23,466 bases of DNA from a virus: positions 1 through 23,466 of the IMG/VR virus record IMGVR_UViG_3300042884_001268; one strand, 5' to 3'. This document shows positions 5,345 through 9,093 of the stretch, piece by piece (positions within the stretch are counted from its first letter, which is position 1; each line of letters begins with the position of its first letter). The translations under genes were made by a program, and so were the position numbers. The notes below the pieces were generated by a model. It had not been told where the DNA came from and did no database searches. It saw nothing but the letters and a program-made list of their open reading frames with translations.

Positions 5345-5355
5345 AGGTGGCGCGC

Positions 5356-5910
5356 ATGGTCGACTCAATTACCGTTCGGCTTGATCACGATCTGGCATCT
5401 CGACTCGGCAAGTTCTTGACTGAAAACCCCAGCCTCTCTGCAGCTTCTGTGGCCGTCCGCGCGTTGGAAGATTTTCTCCCCAAGTCTGTTAAGATCGCAA
5501 TGACCAAACCATCCGGACCGGGAGGCGGGCAGGATGAGGTCTCGGGTCGCGAGGGCTACGAGTTTGGAATCTCGGCTGGTCGGGCACTTGCGAGCCAAAT
5601 CGGCGAACTCGTCAGCCCAGTGGCAACCGAGCTCAAACTACCGGACGGCCGTCGCGCGACGCTTCGGACGGCAAAGGGGCGAAACACCCAATGGGGATGC
5701 CTCAATACACTTCTTGAACGTGTCGATGTCGTCCTTTGCGCATTCACCCCGGATGGAAGCAACTTCGATGTTTGGGAGGTTGATGCAAAGGTTTGGGCGC
5801 GCGAGGCCCGAAACGCGTCTCCCGGCCACAAACTCCACAACAAGCTGACACTGCTGGGAAAGTCCGGAGTTGATAAGTTCGGGAAGCACTTCGGCAACTA
5901 TGCCATCTGA
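5356..5910 (+). CDS. Ribbon-helix-helix protein with unknown C-terminal domain
   Basis: A 184-residue protein. Residues 4-9 (SITVRL) form a short strand, followed by two helices (DHDLASRLGKFLTEN and AASVAVRALEDFL, ending near residue 42). This is the Arc/MetJ/CopG-type ribbon-helix-helix DNA-binding fold seen in antitoxins and small repressors. The remaining 140 residues (with GRRATLRTAKGR, then DVVLCAFTPDG and FDVWEVDAKVWA) match no family I recognise; that region might be an effector or a nuclease-like domain, but no catalytic set can be named. ATG at 5356 is chosen because AAAGG precedes it by 8 nt; a GTG nine bases earlier is in frame. It looks less GC-rich than its neighbours, hinting at recent acquisition. 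Palindromes in its promoter suggest self-control. Confidence 0.75.
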   Translation: MVDSITVRLDHDLASRLGKFLTENPSLSAASVAVRALEDFLPKSVKIAMTKPSGPGGGQDEVSGREGYEFGISAGRALASQIGELVSPVATELKLPDGRRATLRTAKGRNTQWGCLNTLLERVDVVLCAFTPDGSNFDVWEVDAKVWAREARNASPGHKLHNKLTLLGKSGVDKFGKHFGNYAI

Positions 5911-5952: not shown

Positions 5953-6168
5953 TCACCGCATTCGGATCGCCTCGAAGAACCGCCGCAATGCGTAGCTGCG
6001 GCCAATCGAGACGACGGTGAACACCGCGCCCAGCTTCAGGTTCTGCGCCAGCGTCGTGTGCAGTCCAAAGATCGGGAAGATCAGGATCTGCGTCACGACT
6101 GCGACACCGTAGCCGACGATCACGTTGGCGACGGACTCGACCAGCGACATGAGGCGGGACTGCTTCAT
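5953..6168 (-). CDS. Small membrane protein, DUF7220 family
   Basis: A 71-residue protein with two hydrophobic segments, VANVIVGYGVAVVTQILIFPIFG (residues about 13-35) and LGAVFTVVSIGRSYALRRFF (about 46-65), separated by a short polar loop. It is probably an inner-membrane hairpin ending in a basic tail. It resembles the DUF7220 proteins common in rhodobacteral and rhizobial prophages, whose function is unknown. Its ATG overlaps by four bases (ATGA) the stop of the second reading frame of the upstream methylase region, whereas the methylase stop itself lies 9 nt before it. It ends tail-to-tail with the rightward RHH gene about 40 nt away. Confidence 0.8.
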   Translation of the reverse strand: MKQSRLMSLVESVANVIVGYGVAVVTQILIFPIFGLHTTLAQNLKLGAVFTVVSIGRSYALRRFFEAIRMR

Positions 6169-6953
6169 GCCACCGCCTCATCCATCGGCCAGCAGTTCAG
6201 CCGCGAGAGTTCGCAGCGCATGCGCTGCAACCAGGGGGACCACGCCGTTGCCACAGAGGCGAAGCCGGTCCACCCGGTGGGCCAGCCCATCAGCGCCTCG
6301 ACGAACAGCGGGTTCAAGGTCCGGCGCACATCGGAGGTATCGCTCCCAGCCATCTGCGTCGCCAGGACCTGGCGGCCAAGCAGGCCGTTCACCGGCGTGT
6401 TCGCCAGTGTCGTCGCCCCGTCCTTGTGATCCCGCGCCGTCGGCGTCATCCACATGCCCGCTGCATGGGTCAGATCGGCCGACCGACGGTTGCCCGCGCT
6501 CGGCTTGCATCCGTCGTTCGCCATCGGCGTCGGCCAATCGCGCGCCATCCGGTCCAGACCCTTCTCGTCCTTCCGCTCGCCACCCCGGCTGCGGAAGCTG
6601 TCGATCTGCGGCGTCGGCCAAAGTGCTGCCGTCGTCGCTAGGTTCAACCCGTGCTGCCCCGCTTCCTGCGACGGCGTGGGTTTGGTCTGCCGGTTCTCGT
6701 TGGCACTCGCCCTCGGCGTGGGCCAGAGACGCAGCAGTTCCGTCCGGTTCCCGCCACTCGACCGGGTGCCAGAGCAGGCGCGCGGGGTCGGCCAGTTCGT
6801 CTCCCTCGCGGATGGCGAGGATGAACAGCCTTTCGCGCTTGTGGGGCGCACCGACTTCCGCCGCTGTGAAGAGGCCTGCCGCAAGGCGGTAGCCCATGCC
6901 GACCAGTCCTGCGGCGACTTCGGAGAAACCGAGGCGGAGATGATGGGCGACAT
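6165..6953 (-). CDS. Overlapping +1-frame ORF with WPTP repeats (dual coding)
   Basis: Inside the C5-methylase gene, a second minus-strand frame (+1 relative to the methylase) is open and reads protein-like. It carries NWPTPRACS, LWPTPRASA, LWPTPQIDS, DWPTPMAND and MWMTPTARD, and ends with NPLFVEALMGWPTGWTG and a polar tail. From memory, C-termini with WPTP motifs and an NPxxVExLMGxPxGWT block occur as genuine protein sequence in phage methylase loci. Its stop overlaps the DUF7220 start by four bases (ATGA), a junction expected of a translated gene. The start is not determined: the coordinate given is the first in-frame ATG before the repeat block, without a good ribosome binding site. An internal start or a +1 frameshift from the methylase are both possible. 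Absence of stops alone is weak evidence in such GC-rich DNA. Confidence 0.42.
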   Translation of the reverse strand: MSPIISASVSPKSPQDWSAWATALRQASSQRRKSVRPTSAKGCSSSPSARETNWPTPRACSGTRSSGGNRTELLRLWPTPRASANENRQTKPTPSQEAGQHGLNLATTAALWPTPQIDSFRSRGGERKDEKGLDRMARDWPTPMANDGCKPSAGNRRSADLTHAAGMWMTPTARDHKDGATTLANTPVNGLLGRQVLATQMAGSDTSDVRRTLNPLFVEALMGWPTGWTGFASVATAWSPWLQRMRCELSRLNCWPMDEAVA

Positions 6954-7407
6954 TCTCGAGGAAGACGAAGGGCGGCCCGACCTCACCGATGATGCGGGCG
7001 ACATGCGGCCAGAGATGGCGTGGATCCTCGGTGCCGAGCCGTCGGCCCGCCACGCTGAATGGTTGGCACGGATAGCCCGCAGTGATGATGTCCACCGCGC
7101 CGCGCCACGGGCGGCCGTCGAAGGTTCCAACGTCGTCCCAGACAACAGTCTGATCCAGGGACGCGTCTTCCATCCGCGCCACGAGAGTGGCTGCGGCGAA
7201 GGTTTCCCGTTCGACATGGCCCACAGCACGATATCCGGGGATGGCGATGGTGAGGCCGAGGTCGAGCCCGCCAGCGCCGGAGCAAAGGGAGAGGCCGAAG
7301 AGACATGCATCTGCGGCTCCGGAGCCAAGTCCGGAGGAAGGTAAAGCCAGGTCATGCATGTCACGCGGCGGCTTCGGGTTGGGATTCTTCAGGCGCGGCC
7401 GGGGCAT
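6178..7407 (-). CDS. DNA (cytosine-5-)-methyltransferase
   Basis: A 409-residue C5-cytosine methylase of the Dcm type. Visible motifs are I (LSLCSGAGGLDLG, 39-51), IV with the catalytic Cys (GYPCQPFS, 111-118), VI (ENV, 151-153), VIII (KRERLFILA, 190-198) and X (LCGNGVVP, 384-391). Between VIII and X, where the target-recognition domain should be, the protein is instead rich in LADA/DADG repeats and looks disordered. These repeats come from a DNA word that also encodes WPTP in the +1 frame. ATG at 7407 is the farthest start; ATG at 7359 gives 393 residues and lies one base after the upstream methylase stop (TGA-C-ATG), so it may be the real one. No restriction enzyme is adjacent, so it is probably an orphan protecting phage DNA. 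Confidence 0.92.
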   Translation of the reverse strand: MPRPRLKNPNPKPPRDMHDLALPSSGLGSGAADACLFGLSLCSGAGGLDLGLTIAIPGYRAVGHVERETFAAATLVARMEDASLDQTVVWDDVGTFDGRPWRGAVDIITAGYPCQPFSVAGRRLGTEDPRHLWPHVARIIGEVGPPFVFLENVAHHLRLGFSEVAAGLVGMGYRLAAGLFTAAEVGAPHKRERLFILAIREGDELADPARLLWHPVEWREPDGTAASLAHAEGECQREPADQTHAVAGSGAARVEPSDDGSTLADAADRQLPQPGWRAEGREGSGPDGARLADADGERRMQAERGQPSVGRSDPCSGHVDDADGAGSQGRGDDTGEHAGERPAWPPGPGDADGWERYLRCAPDLEPAVRRGADGLAHRVDRLRLCGNGVVPLVAAHALRTLAAELLADG

Positions 7408-8704
7408 CCCCCAGGCGCTCAGTCCTCACCTGCGCGAAGGTCCGACCGTCGCCGTCGAGGATTGCGTCGCGTCCCGTGTCGGCCTGCCAGCGTTCGACGG
7501 CGACATCGATGTAGGCCGGGCTGATTTCCATCGCGAAGACGCGACGGCAATTCGCTTCGCCTGCCATGATCTGCGACCCGGAGCCCGAGAACGGTTCATA
7601 GCAGAGACCGCCCCGCGCCACATGCTGGCGCATCGGGATCCCGAACGCATCGAGTGGCTTCGGCGTCGGGTGGTCGGGCCGGTCGTCCTTGGCGAAGCTG
7701 GGCAGCGCCCACGTCGACGGCAGGGTTTCCTCGGCCACCTTGGGCGGACGGTTCGGGCGGCGCCAGCCCATGAAGCATGGCTCGTGCTTCCACAGGTAAT
7801 GCGAGCGGGTCAGAACCCCGCGGTCCTTCACCCAGATGATCTGCTGGTGCACAAATGCCCCGGCTTTTTCCCAGCAGGCCTCGAGCATCGCCTGGCGGCG
7901 CGAGGCGTGCCAGCAATACCACGCAGCATTGTCAGCGATGGCCTCCGCCACGGCGGCCGCGATGAAGCCGTCGTAAAGCTCGGCCCCCTGCGAACTGTCG
8001 TCCCAGGTCGTGCCATAGGATGCCGACCAGTCCTTGTTGCGGGTCGGATGATTCGAACCGTCGTAGTCGACGAGGTAAGGCGGGTCTGTCGCAAACAGGA
8101 TCGCCCGTTCGCCATTCATCAGACGACGTACATCGGCAGCGCTGGTCGAGTCCCCGCAAAGCAGCCGGTGATCGCCGAGGATCCAGAGATCGCCCGTCCG
8201 CGAGGCCGGATTGCGCGGCGGTTCGGGGATGGTCACCGGCGGCACCGATCCCCCGGCACCACCTTCTTGTTCGTCCCTTTCCGGAACAAAGGCCAGCAAC
8301 TTGTCCAACTCGCCGTCCGAAAAGCCGACCAGTGACAGGTCGAAATCCTCGGCCAGAAGCGTGTTCAGTTCGGCCGAGAGCAATGCCTCGTCCCAGGTGC
8401 CAAGCTCGGTCAGCTTGTTGTCGGCGATCCGATAGGCCCGGCGTTGGGTTTCGGTCAGGTGCCCAAGCACGATAACCGGCGCTTCGGTCAGCCCTAGTTG
8501 GGTGGCGGCGAGAACCCGGCCATGGCCCGCGATCAACTCGCCGTCCTCGGCCACGAGGCACGGCACGGTCCAGCCGAACTCGGCCATGCTGGCGGCGATC
8601 TTCGCCACCTGGTCCGCGCCATGCGCCTTGGCGTTACGTGCGTAGGGCTGGAGCCTGGCCAGCGGCCACATCTCGATCCGATCCGGGGCAAAGCTCAGCG
8701 TCAT
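7361..8704 (-). CDS. ParB-like nuclease / DNA N4-N6 methyltransferase fusion
   Basis: A 447-residue two-domain protein. Residues 8-115 form a ParB/sulfiredoxin-like domain (AGHGRVLAA at 59-67, RAYRIADNKLTE at 89-100) that probably binds DNA. Residues about 170-410 are an amino-methyltransferase with DPPY at 207-210 followed later by the SAM-binding FSGSG at 372-376, the beta-class order. Such fusions are common in prophages and methylate adenine N6 or cytosine N4 without a cognate nuclease. The ATG at 8704 is chosen: it starts the conserved domain, has GAGGA upstream (somewhat long spacing), and leaves the repeat block at 8755-8806 non-coding. The frame is open back to 8812. It lies directly upstream of the C5 methylase and is probably co-transcribed with it. 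Confidence 0.93.
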   Translation of the reverse strand: MTLSFAPDRIEMWPLARLQPYARNAKAHGADQVAKIAASMAEFGWTVPCLVAEDGELIAGHGRVLAATQLGLTEAPVIVLGHLTETQRRAYRIADNKLTELGTWDEALLSAELNTLLAEDFDLSLVGFSDGELDKLLAFVPERDEQEGGAGGSVPPVTIPEPPRNPASRTGDLWILGDHRLLCGDSTSAADVRRLMNGERAILFATDPPYLVDYDGSNHPTRNKDWSASYGTTWDDSSQGAELYDGFIAAAVAEAIADNAAWYCWHASRRQAMLEACWEKAGAFVHQQIIWVKDRGVLTRSHYLWKHEPCFMGWRRPNRPPKVAEETLPSTWALPSFAKDDRPDHPTPKPLDAFGIPMRQHVARGGLCYEPFSGSGSQIMAGEANCRRVFAMEISPAYIDVAVERWQADTGRDAILDGDGRTFAQVRTERLGDAPAAPEESQPEAAA

Positions 8705-8754
8705 CAGCGGGTCATTCCTCGGATCAGGGTGGATACCCTTGGCTTCCGGACTCC

Positions 8755-8806
8755 GGGGTCCAGACTGGACTCCACGCGGGGTCCAGCGGCCACCGGGGGT
8801 GTCCAG
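8755..8806. repeat. Four copies of GGnGTCCAG upstream of the methylase operon
   Basis: GGGGTCCAG occurs at 8755-8763 and 8778-8786, GGTGTCCAG at 8798-8806, and an inverted copy CTGGACTCC at 8765-8773. The first and inverted copies form a near-perfect 9-bp dyad with a 1-nt centre. The block sits 50-100 bp upstream of the methylase start, where operators would be expected. The repeats are seen directly; a regulatory role is inferred. Confidence 0.5.
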
Positions 8807-9093
8807 CTTCAAGGATTTGATTTTGCGTTGTTTCAGGCCGGTTCAGGCGGCGGTGGCTTCCGGGTGGCTTCCCAAAAATCCGGCCCTGTCGCTAGCGATA
8901 TGTCGCGCTTCGCCCGCCAGCATACGAATGTCGCCAGGAAGGAACCAGAAATCAGTGGGTTAGCGGGACGGATGCCGATTGGACCCTGCCCGGACCCCGG
9001 AAGCCAGCTCCGGTGTCCACCTCGCGATCAGCAACGGTTCATCCGAGCGCACGACCCCGAGTATATCGGTATTGATAGCCAATGGCGGTTGAT

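Follow-up and report, generated by a model that had tools for sequence, protein, structure and literature searches.

Split cytosine methylases and the phage locus

Some C5-cytosine DNA methyltransferases, M.EaeI among them, occur naturally as two polypeptides, and the open reading frames (ORFs) for M.EcoHK31I overlap in different frames. Here we examine a phage gene pair that appears to encode an enzyme of this general kind. The pair resides on the minus strand of a virus record described as a prophage (IMG/VR record IMGVR_UViG_3300042884_001268), whose full 23,466 bases constitute the window analyzed herein. The methylase frame is termed alpha and the +1 frame is termed beta, and their mechanically defined ORFs span 6178-7407 and 6165-7364, respectively. 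All coordinates below refer to the window and, unless stated otherwise, to its minus strand.

In those parts of a published account that bear on split enzymes (PMC3404938), the large subunit of M.EcoHK31I is described as carrying motifs I-VIII and X and the small subunit as carrying motif IX, with the recognition domain placed, by prediction, in the large subunit. The same parts assign a distal variable region and motifs IX and X to the small subunit of M.AquI. Fragments of M.SssI are also described there as complementing each other, best when the C-terminal piece begins between motif VIII and the recognition domain, and thus the split proposed here is biochemically plausible.

As far as M.EcoHK31I is described in that source, the phage locus resembles it in that alpha carries motifs I-VIII and X and beta carries motif IX, like the large and small subunits, respectively. 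It differs in that the recognition-like segment is selected in beta, whereas in M.EcoHK31I this domain is predicted to lie in the large subunit. Moreover, the two genes of the window overlap over essentially their whole length with starts only 4 nucleotides (nt) apart, a comparison made with M.EcoHK31I as known by description. Because the comparison is by description only and the recognition domain is placed differently, we do not class the phage enzyme as a member of the M.EcoHK31I group, although it would work like it. M.AquI is similar in being divided after motif VIII into two polypeptides, but motif X is in alpha here rather than with motif IX in the small subunit, as the source describes for M.AquI. 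An M.AquI-like arrangement, in which the beta frame holds both IX and X, does occur among relatives (locus L230, gp53 of Gordonia phage Upyo, and gp81 of Mycobacterium phage ChampagnePapi).

We assign a probability of about 0.87 to the reading that two overlapping genes at the locus encode a C5-cytosine DNA methyltransferase made of two polypeptides and that this enzyme works like M.EcoHK31I. The alpha gene (6178..7359; 393 amino acids from the ATG at 7359) would encode the methyltransferase subunit with the catalytic Rossmann part (motifs I-VIII) and a C-terminal motif X helix, joined by a middle of ~170 residues that would be mostly a shadow of the beta coding sequence. The beta gene (6165..7355; 396 amino acids), which spans nearly all of alpha, would contribute the DNA-recognition part, in the form of a WPTP-repeat array, and motif IX, and its N-terminal half would in turn be mostly the shadow of alpha. 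Together, the pair would form an enzyme with motifs I-X. Selection on both frames, the part of each frame on which it acts, the openness of both frames, and the patterns of start codons and Shine-Dalgarno sequences are directly observed. Judging from these sequence patterns, it is likely that both proteins are translated, that they form a complex with catalytic activity, and that beta recognizes DNA. The biological role is probably the protection of phage DNA against host restriction.

Selection on the two frames takes turns

Two scans of viral contigs yielded 159 loci. From these, with the window added and with 18 loci with fragment hits, 11 short genes, and identical copies left out, 86 distinct full-length genes (clade A) were aligned by codon. 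Selection in this alignment acts on alpha for motifs I-VIII and X and on beta between them. As far as codon ~205, alpha position 3 mostly has the highest entropy. The maximum then passes to alpha position 1 (the wobble position of beta) over codons 211-345 and 361-375, has no clear phase at codons 346-360, and is back at alpha position 3 over codons 376-390.

Substitution counts from 43 disjoint pairs, expressed as single-base changes per possible change, exhibit the same switch. Over codons 205-345, changes that alter alpha and are silent in beta occur at 3.59 per possible change versus 0.43 for the opposite class (1115 versus 135 changes), and over codons 363-375 the corresponding counts are 40 and 2. 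On either side the order is reversed, with values of 0.75 versus 3.0 at codons 40-150 (207 versus 774), counts of 20 versus 175 at codons 185-204, and values of 0.53 versus 1.95 at codons 376-409 (32 versus 166). Mean identity to the window is 0.935 for beta and 0.787 for alpha over codons 205-375, and is 0.768 for beta and 0.897 for alpha over codons 39-150.

It had originally been predicted, from the sequence of the window, that both frames are constrained. Both are indeed selected, and third positions of the +1 frame do not follow a neutral pattern, but the two frames are not both tight over most of the gene; instead, the selected frame alternates by segment. In the N-terminal half (6796..7352), alpha is the selected reading and beta is an open, little constrained passenger, with the exception of alpha codons 152-184, where both readings are conserved. 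Over most of 6318..6794, it is the alpha reading that is a weakly constrained, stop-free passenger with predicted disorder.

Because LADA encoded by GC-rich codons yields WPTP in the +1 frame, we also ran a synonymous shuffle test. The alpha protein was held fixed while its synonymous codons were permuted or resampled, and the profile used for scoring excluded sequences at least 50% identical. For this set (103 of 113 genes plus the window), none of the 100 + 100 shuffles scored as high as the real +1 reading in any gene (103 of 103), and this holds for the window as well. Real readings averaged 159 bits versus 35 and 30 for the shuffles, across genes with a GC content of 0.42-0.71, and the window's beta scored 128.6 bits versus a shuffle maximum of 54.7. 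An earlier run with less strict training, in which some near relatives were present among both the training and the test genes and the window was not included, gave 62 of 62. Since all genes in the set except the window were found by beta queries and phage hits, the test demonstrates constraint and not frequency.

Openness of the two frames

With the beta protein held fixed, codons 205-370 of the 86 genes would be expected to contain 255 alpha stops, but they contain none. Likewise, T is present at 0 of 2,533 sites where it would create an alpha stop versus 1,229 of 9,093 sites elsewhere. Because these genes had been picked for an open alpha frame, the count was repeated on regions located with beta. 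All 103 distinct regions of this type, from loci of the two viral-contig scans, are free of alpha stops, and 140 distant loci, found from beta motifs only, contain 17 versus 448 expected, with all 17 in 4 loci. This shortage of stops suggests that alpha is translated through its weakly selected region to reach motif X.

When alpha is held fixed, beta stops are depleted in a pattern that differs by group. In clade A (84 genes), there are 0 versus 69.7 expected between motifs I and IV and 0 versus 17.4 between motif IV and the ENV of motif VI. The corresponding values are 155 versus 156.5 and 0 versus 52.3 in clade B (53 genes), and 30 versus 62.8 and 0 versus 18.5 in a mixed set C (32 genes). 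These patterns place the beta start ahead of motif I in clade A, whereas in clade B it is ahead of motif IV.

Start of the beta gene

In the window's clade, beta probably starts at the ATG at 7355, which follows the alpha ATG by 4 nt (ATGCATG). The surrounding TGA-C-ATG-C-ATG (7353..7363) comprises the stop of an upstream methylase gene, the alpha start, and the beta start, and perhaps termination of the upstream methylase at 7361 feeds ribosomes to both the 7359 and 7355 starts. The alpha ORF extends to 7407, yet every position of its first codons varies (entropy of codons 1-15). Motif I was found in 76 of the 86 clade A genes, and 75 of these carry ATGCATG (73) or ATGAATG (2). The beta ATG in this start region is present in 80 of 80 aligned genes, and a 20-mer from the region is found in 157 of 534 loci, many of which are duplicates. 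A shorter +1 ORF beginning at 6953, as originally proposed, is probably wrong, because in the window's clade the frame is stop-free along the whole gene and 7355 is the likely start.

Among 173 more widely drawn genes (of 232 items), the beta frame opens upstream of motif I in 46 and between motifs I and IV in 127, and 36 of the 46 have a beta ATG no more than 8 nt from an alpha start codon. A beta start codon is present in 116 of 118 distinct genes of the internal type. A Shine-Dalgarno match of at least 4 bases at proper spacing accompanies 83% of these 116 starts, versus 45% in the third frame, 46% at random positions, and 8% at alpha-frame codons. For 6-base matches, the value is 46% versus 13, 16, and 0% in the same controls. 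Approximately three quarters of the Shine-Dalgarno-matched starts lie 40-69 nt before motif IV. Thus, beta in many other phages would start inside alpha, ahead of motif IV, and usually with its own ribosome site.

The recognition-like segment and motifs IX and X

The original prediction drew attention to a repeated plus-strand word close to GGCGTCGGCCA. We find it exactly at 6526 and 6610, with one mismatch at 6715 and 6784, and with two at 6442, giving the spacings of 84, 84, 105, and 69 that had been noted. Three further matches with at most one mismatch occur in the 23.5 kb window, at 1751, 4869, and 13259. In translation order, alpha reads these words as LADP, LAHA, LADA, LADA, and VDDA, whereas the +1 frame reads WPTP four times and then WMTP (beta residues 188, 211, 246, 274, and 302); the original description gave LADA/DADG and WPTP. 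The five words reside in a beta segment (6318..6794) that is presumed to be the target-recognition part and that, like motif IX (LNPLFVEALMGWPTGW, 6270..6317), belongs to the C-terminal half of beta.

The number of [WYF]xTP words in this half ranges from 0 to 8 among 203 representatives and is mostly 2 or 3. After these words, beta carries LNPxFVExLMGxPxGW, which we take to be motif IX of ordinary C5-methylases. The beta motif (LNPLFVEALMGWP) is similar to an in-frame motif that precedes motif X in three loci (L414, L381, and L378); in L414, the clearly similar motif LNPLFVEYMMGLPIGWV is in one frame with motif X, and the other two are alike in this regard. Furthermore, beta proteins align with the family phrog_1008, the end portion of which also aligns with the IX-X region of L414 and L381.

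Motif X (GNGVVP, 6235..6252) begins 65 nt past the start of beta motif IX, at which point the alpha frame is selected again; the CGNGVVP originally reported is thus found in the alpha frame. In 124 of 168 loci, motifs IV and X both lie one frame behind beta motif IX and are connected by an open alpha frame, and the IX-to-X distance is exactly 65 nt in 113 of those 124. The other 44 include 38 in which a motif is missing (by regular expression or because the contig ends), two, L256 and L308, with one alpha stop each, and three, L188, L189, and L230, that are described below. In L183, the regular expression places motif IV in the beta frame and motif X one frame behind, which might reflect a frame slip or a different join. 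The ends of alpha and beta in the window are 13 nt apart, and the TGA of beta overlaps the ATG of the next gene as ATGA (6165..6168), just as had been noted. An ATG overlaps the beta stop in 134 of 149 distinct related regions, a count of the ATG itself irrespective of the gene behind it.

Alpha matches PF00145 (E 1e-30) over residues 39-205 only and phrog_363 over residues 39-401. Motif IV (PCQPFS, 7054..7071) has invariant P, C, Q, and S among 56 alpha sequences, and in the same set PCQ and E151 are invariant and N152 is nearly so, as is characteristic of C5-methyltransferases. Motif VI (ENV, 6949..6957) includes, in its +1 reading, the ATG at 6953. Beta matches phrog_27243 (E 7.4e-16), a family of unknown function, and phrog_1008 (E 3.6e-13), a DNA methyltransferase family. 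Pfam gave no match for the C-terminal half of beta, and a Pfam search with 68 betas returned only five families, each in one or two members at E 0.029 or worse. For L414, L381, and L378, Pfam matches end at residues 183-222, short of IX/X.

The structural model of alpha has predicted local distance difference test (pLDDT) values mostly above 85 over residues ~36-210, with 69-79 in three ten-residue blocks, and values of 87-94 in the C-terminal helix. In contrast, residues 215-344 are unstructured, with pLDDT values of mostly 32-42. Foldseek ranks M.HaeIII and M.HhaI at the top, and superposition on M.HhaI (327 residues) gives Z 21.7 and a root mean square deviation of 3.8 for 207 aligned residues within the model range 34-409. 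Alpha therefore does not look like a complete single-chain enzyme with a recognition domain and motif IX of its own, because its segment from VIII to X evolves mainly under the beta frame and is predicted to be disordered in alpha.

Other arrangements among relatives

Locus L230 has an alpha with motifs I-VIII and a beta with WPTP words, IX, and X. Mycobacterium phage ChampagnePapi encodes a beta homologue with IX and X (gp81; best-domain E 1.6e-12 with 7 proteins searched) in tandem with gp82, which carries I-VIII, and stops are abundant in each frame across the partner gene. Both IX and X are also present in gp53 of Gordonia phage Upyo (E 1.1e-12), where the beta frame is open through gp54. 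Two stops (2035 and 2110) interrupt the Upyo alpha frame, which is open thereafter, and therefore we regard this locus as a broken-alpha form and not as a clean tandem.

Two further loci, L188 (1525-3115) and L189 (1474-3124), have intact and enlarged beta ORFs of 509 and 549 residues with MAWLYLP/MTWLYLPP near the start, and alpha stops soon after motif VIII. Their alpha frames contain 7 and 6 stops versus 6.3 and 10.1 expected, and so alpha is not protected there. Homologues of the +1 frame that are encoded in the absence of an open methylase frame therefore exist in L188, L189, and ChampagnePapi gp81. Motif X stands by itself in L188 and L189, in an ORF with an early MGNA, and the arrangement as a whole possibly represents a three-piece methylase or the decay of alpha.

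Between the window (6318-6794) and L189, the units CSGxRSSGxNRTEL and NRQTKPTPSQxxGxHGLNLA occur in opposite order. More broadly, unit order is the same in 84 beta pairs and different in 13, five of which (rows of L176) are segmentation artefacts. Because the remaining eight represent one event, the window's clade versus L189, unit reshuffling is suggested rather than established.

Distribution

A tblastn search with the C-terminal half of beta matched 14 phage records. Eight of these (L001-L007 and L009) and an Acidovorax phage found with alpha (L008) were examined, and in all nine the beta-coding DNA can also be read as a methylase one frame back. Using the motif IV DNA pattern alone, 119 viral contigs were among the matches listed, of which 98 have beta in the +1 frame, 7 are cut off, and 6 have their best beta-like hit in another frame. 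Among these six, L409 and L371 look like an upstream frame slip in alpha, L378, L414, and L381 represent a third arrangement, and the last is L406. The resulting 82% (98/119) is not a census, because the pattern favors one version of motif IV and some contigs are also in the profile.

Among 80 bacterial genome loci found with beta, 73 have PCQ and motif X in the alpha frame. One metagenome-assembled genome, from a Rhodobacter sp. (L448), matches the beta residues at 100% identity. A single clade B beta matches 215 of 50,697 phage records and 14 of 72,556 plasmids.

Given these patterns, we lean toward a broader proposal, namely that the common form of C5-methyltransferase among tailed phages is a heterodimer whose two subunits share one stretch of DNA. 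The overlapping genes would be reciprocal passengers: in each frame, one half would be selected as enzyme and the other would be a weakly selected passenger that has merely to remain open. In the window's clade, the overlap would extend over essentially the full length, with starts 4 nt apart. Beta would then be a modular recognition subunit built of WPTP repeats, and these units would be gained, lost, and reordered, such that methylation targets might be changed or combined without touching the catalytic frame.

Alternative explanations and points against the two-gene reading

Several observations weigh against the two-gene reading or parts of it. Codons 346-362 are inside the overlap, and yet alpha-silent changes are the commoner class there (2.06 versus 0.77 per possible change; 74 versus 27). 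Thus, one short stretch does not follow beta, and neither frame is clearly favored in it. Clade A genes are related, and so the counts are not of independent events. No chain in the Protein Data Bank (PDB) was recovered in a sequence search with the beta profile, and the model of a 262-residue piece of beta has a mean pLDDT of 49.8 with no recognition-domain fold visible. The recognition role of beta is therefore assigned from position and homology. These two lines do support the original suggestion that the repeats replace the usual recognition domain, the homology being to relatives that have motifs IX and X in a single frame, whereas structure lends it nothing. Among the 119 contigs listed, 7 have neither beta nor an in-frame IX and 1 has an in-frame IX. 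Motif X of L188 and L189 is in a third, later ORF. Finally, L378, L414, and L381 carry IX/X in alpha and WPTP/LPTP-like words in the +1 frame. A simple two-subunit split does not explain this third arrangement, in which only the recognition part would lie outside the alpha frame.

The last three loci fit double programmed frameshifting at least as well as they fit the split. By this mechanism, ribosomes would enter the +1 frame around codon 204 and leave it around codon 375 to make one chain with motifs I-X in canonical order, and the selected frame does switch there and back. We nevertheless regard it as very improbable. Alpha is free of stops across the skipped segment, which a shifting ribosome would not need, and beta is free of stops from well ahead of the proposed shift point. 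Synonymous positions of codons 200-204 are variable among the 86 genes, and therefore no invariant shift site is evident. Shine-Dalgarno-matched internal starts, the overlap of the beta stop with an ATG in 134 of 149 regions, and the tandem beta gene of ChampagnePapi are also at odds with it. For the most part, the same evidence (alpha stop-free over the beta-coded segment, no invariant site at codons 200-204, matched beta starts, and the separate mycobacteriophage gene) speaks against the originally proposed single +1 frameshift that swaps recognition domains. The other option offered in that prediction, a second protein, is strongly supported by dual selection, dual openness, internal starts, and the separate beta gene.

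A different possibility is that beta is real but is a 262-residue protein starting at the ATG at 6953 inside ENV. The Asn codon that creates this ATG is AAT in 81 of the 86 clade A genes, versus 79 AAT and 251 AAC at other Asn codons, and changes that are silent in alpha and alter beta occur less often over codons 152-184 (1.04 per possible change) than over codons 40-150 (3.0). Low synonymous variation at 152-184 is not unique, because other clade A stretches are also low. In clade B, synonymous entropy drops further from ENV onward, which leaves room for a shorter product, and the 7355 start is based on openness and the conserved ATGCATG without a demonstrated Shine-Dalgarno sequence. The 6953 start is made less likely by the stop-depletion test, in which beta stops number 0 versus 87 expected from motif I to ENV in clade A and 0 versus 52 from motif IV to ENV in clade B. 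Moreover, the ATG is missing in 5 of 86 genes, and the dual ATG is present in 75 of 76. We now consider the 6953 start unlikely. Less probable still is that beta is an independent protein unrelated to methylation, such as a regulator or an anti-restriction factor, that merely overlaps the methylase. Its lack of a solved or Pfam relative would fit this view, but its motif IX falls between methylase motifs IV and X in 124 of 168 loci. Also, a similar IX is in frame with X in L414, L381, L378, and L230, the actinophage versions join IX to X, and the middle of alpha, where a recognition domain is expected, is predicted to be disordered. The automatic production of WPTP from LADA in GC-rich codons raises the prospect that the +1 reading is only a by-product of alpha amino acids and codon usage. 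This codon-usage artefact is ruled out for practical purposes by the codon-phase switch, the substitution counts, and the 103 of 103 genes, at GC contents from 0.42 to 0.71, that exceed all synonymous shuffles; in addition, alpha amino acids change more than those of beta in the segment.

Annotation and implications

The annotations of 13 nested records, one of which is from a plasmid table that is itself incomplete, include both frames in 2, alpha only in 7, and beta only in 4. In two deposited sequences (L008:2508-3674 and L534:2148-2897), it is beta and not alpha that is named 'cytosine-specific methyltransferase' or 'DNA methyltransferase'. Both frames of phage Bloom are annotated as methyltransferases. 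Paenibacillus phage Shelly has an annotated cytosine methyltransferase and a +1 'g55 internal gene' (gp55/gp56), the latter labeled hypothetical with no subunit role and with its annotated start inside alpha rather than beside the alpha start. PHROGs holds phrog_363 (alpha) and phrog_1008 and phrog_27243 (beta) as separate families, and the entries consulted make no mention of nesting. A search of the open-licence PMC literature did not recover a paper on nested genes in phage C5-methylases.

If the two-gene reading is correct, then a common phage enzyme is often annotated as half an enzyme, cloning of the annotated ORF alone could yield an inactive product, and specificity read from the middle of alpha would mislead. 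The locus would also provide a large natural experiment in overlapping genes, in which the segments under selection can be told apart from the passenger segments at the level of single codons. Relatives with AquI-like or broken-alpha arrangements offer testable directions of evolution, and whether M.EcoHK31I belongs to a phage-wide class becomes directly testable.

Neighboring genes

The gene downstream of beta (5953..6168, 71 amino acids) encodes a DUF7220 protein (PF23858, E 1.3e-34). Convergent with it is a plus-strand ORF at 5347-5910 (187 amino acids), for which neither Pfam nor PHROGs gave a match at E up to 1. The upstream gene (7361..8812), which stops one base before the alpha start, encodes a ParB-like domain and an N6/N4 DNA methylase, with matches to phrog_498 (E 2.5e-125) and PF01555 (E 6.5e-7) and with ParB_N below the cut-off. 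Two unlike DNA methylases therefore stand in tandem on this phage, with 7361-8812 directly upstream of alpha/beta. In Klebsiella virus KpV2811 (L005:2387-3469), the beta frame continues stop-free into a downstream endonuclease VII gene.

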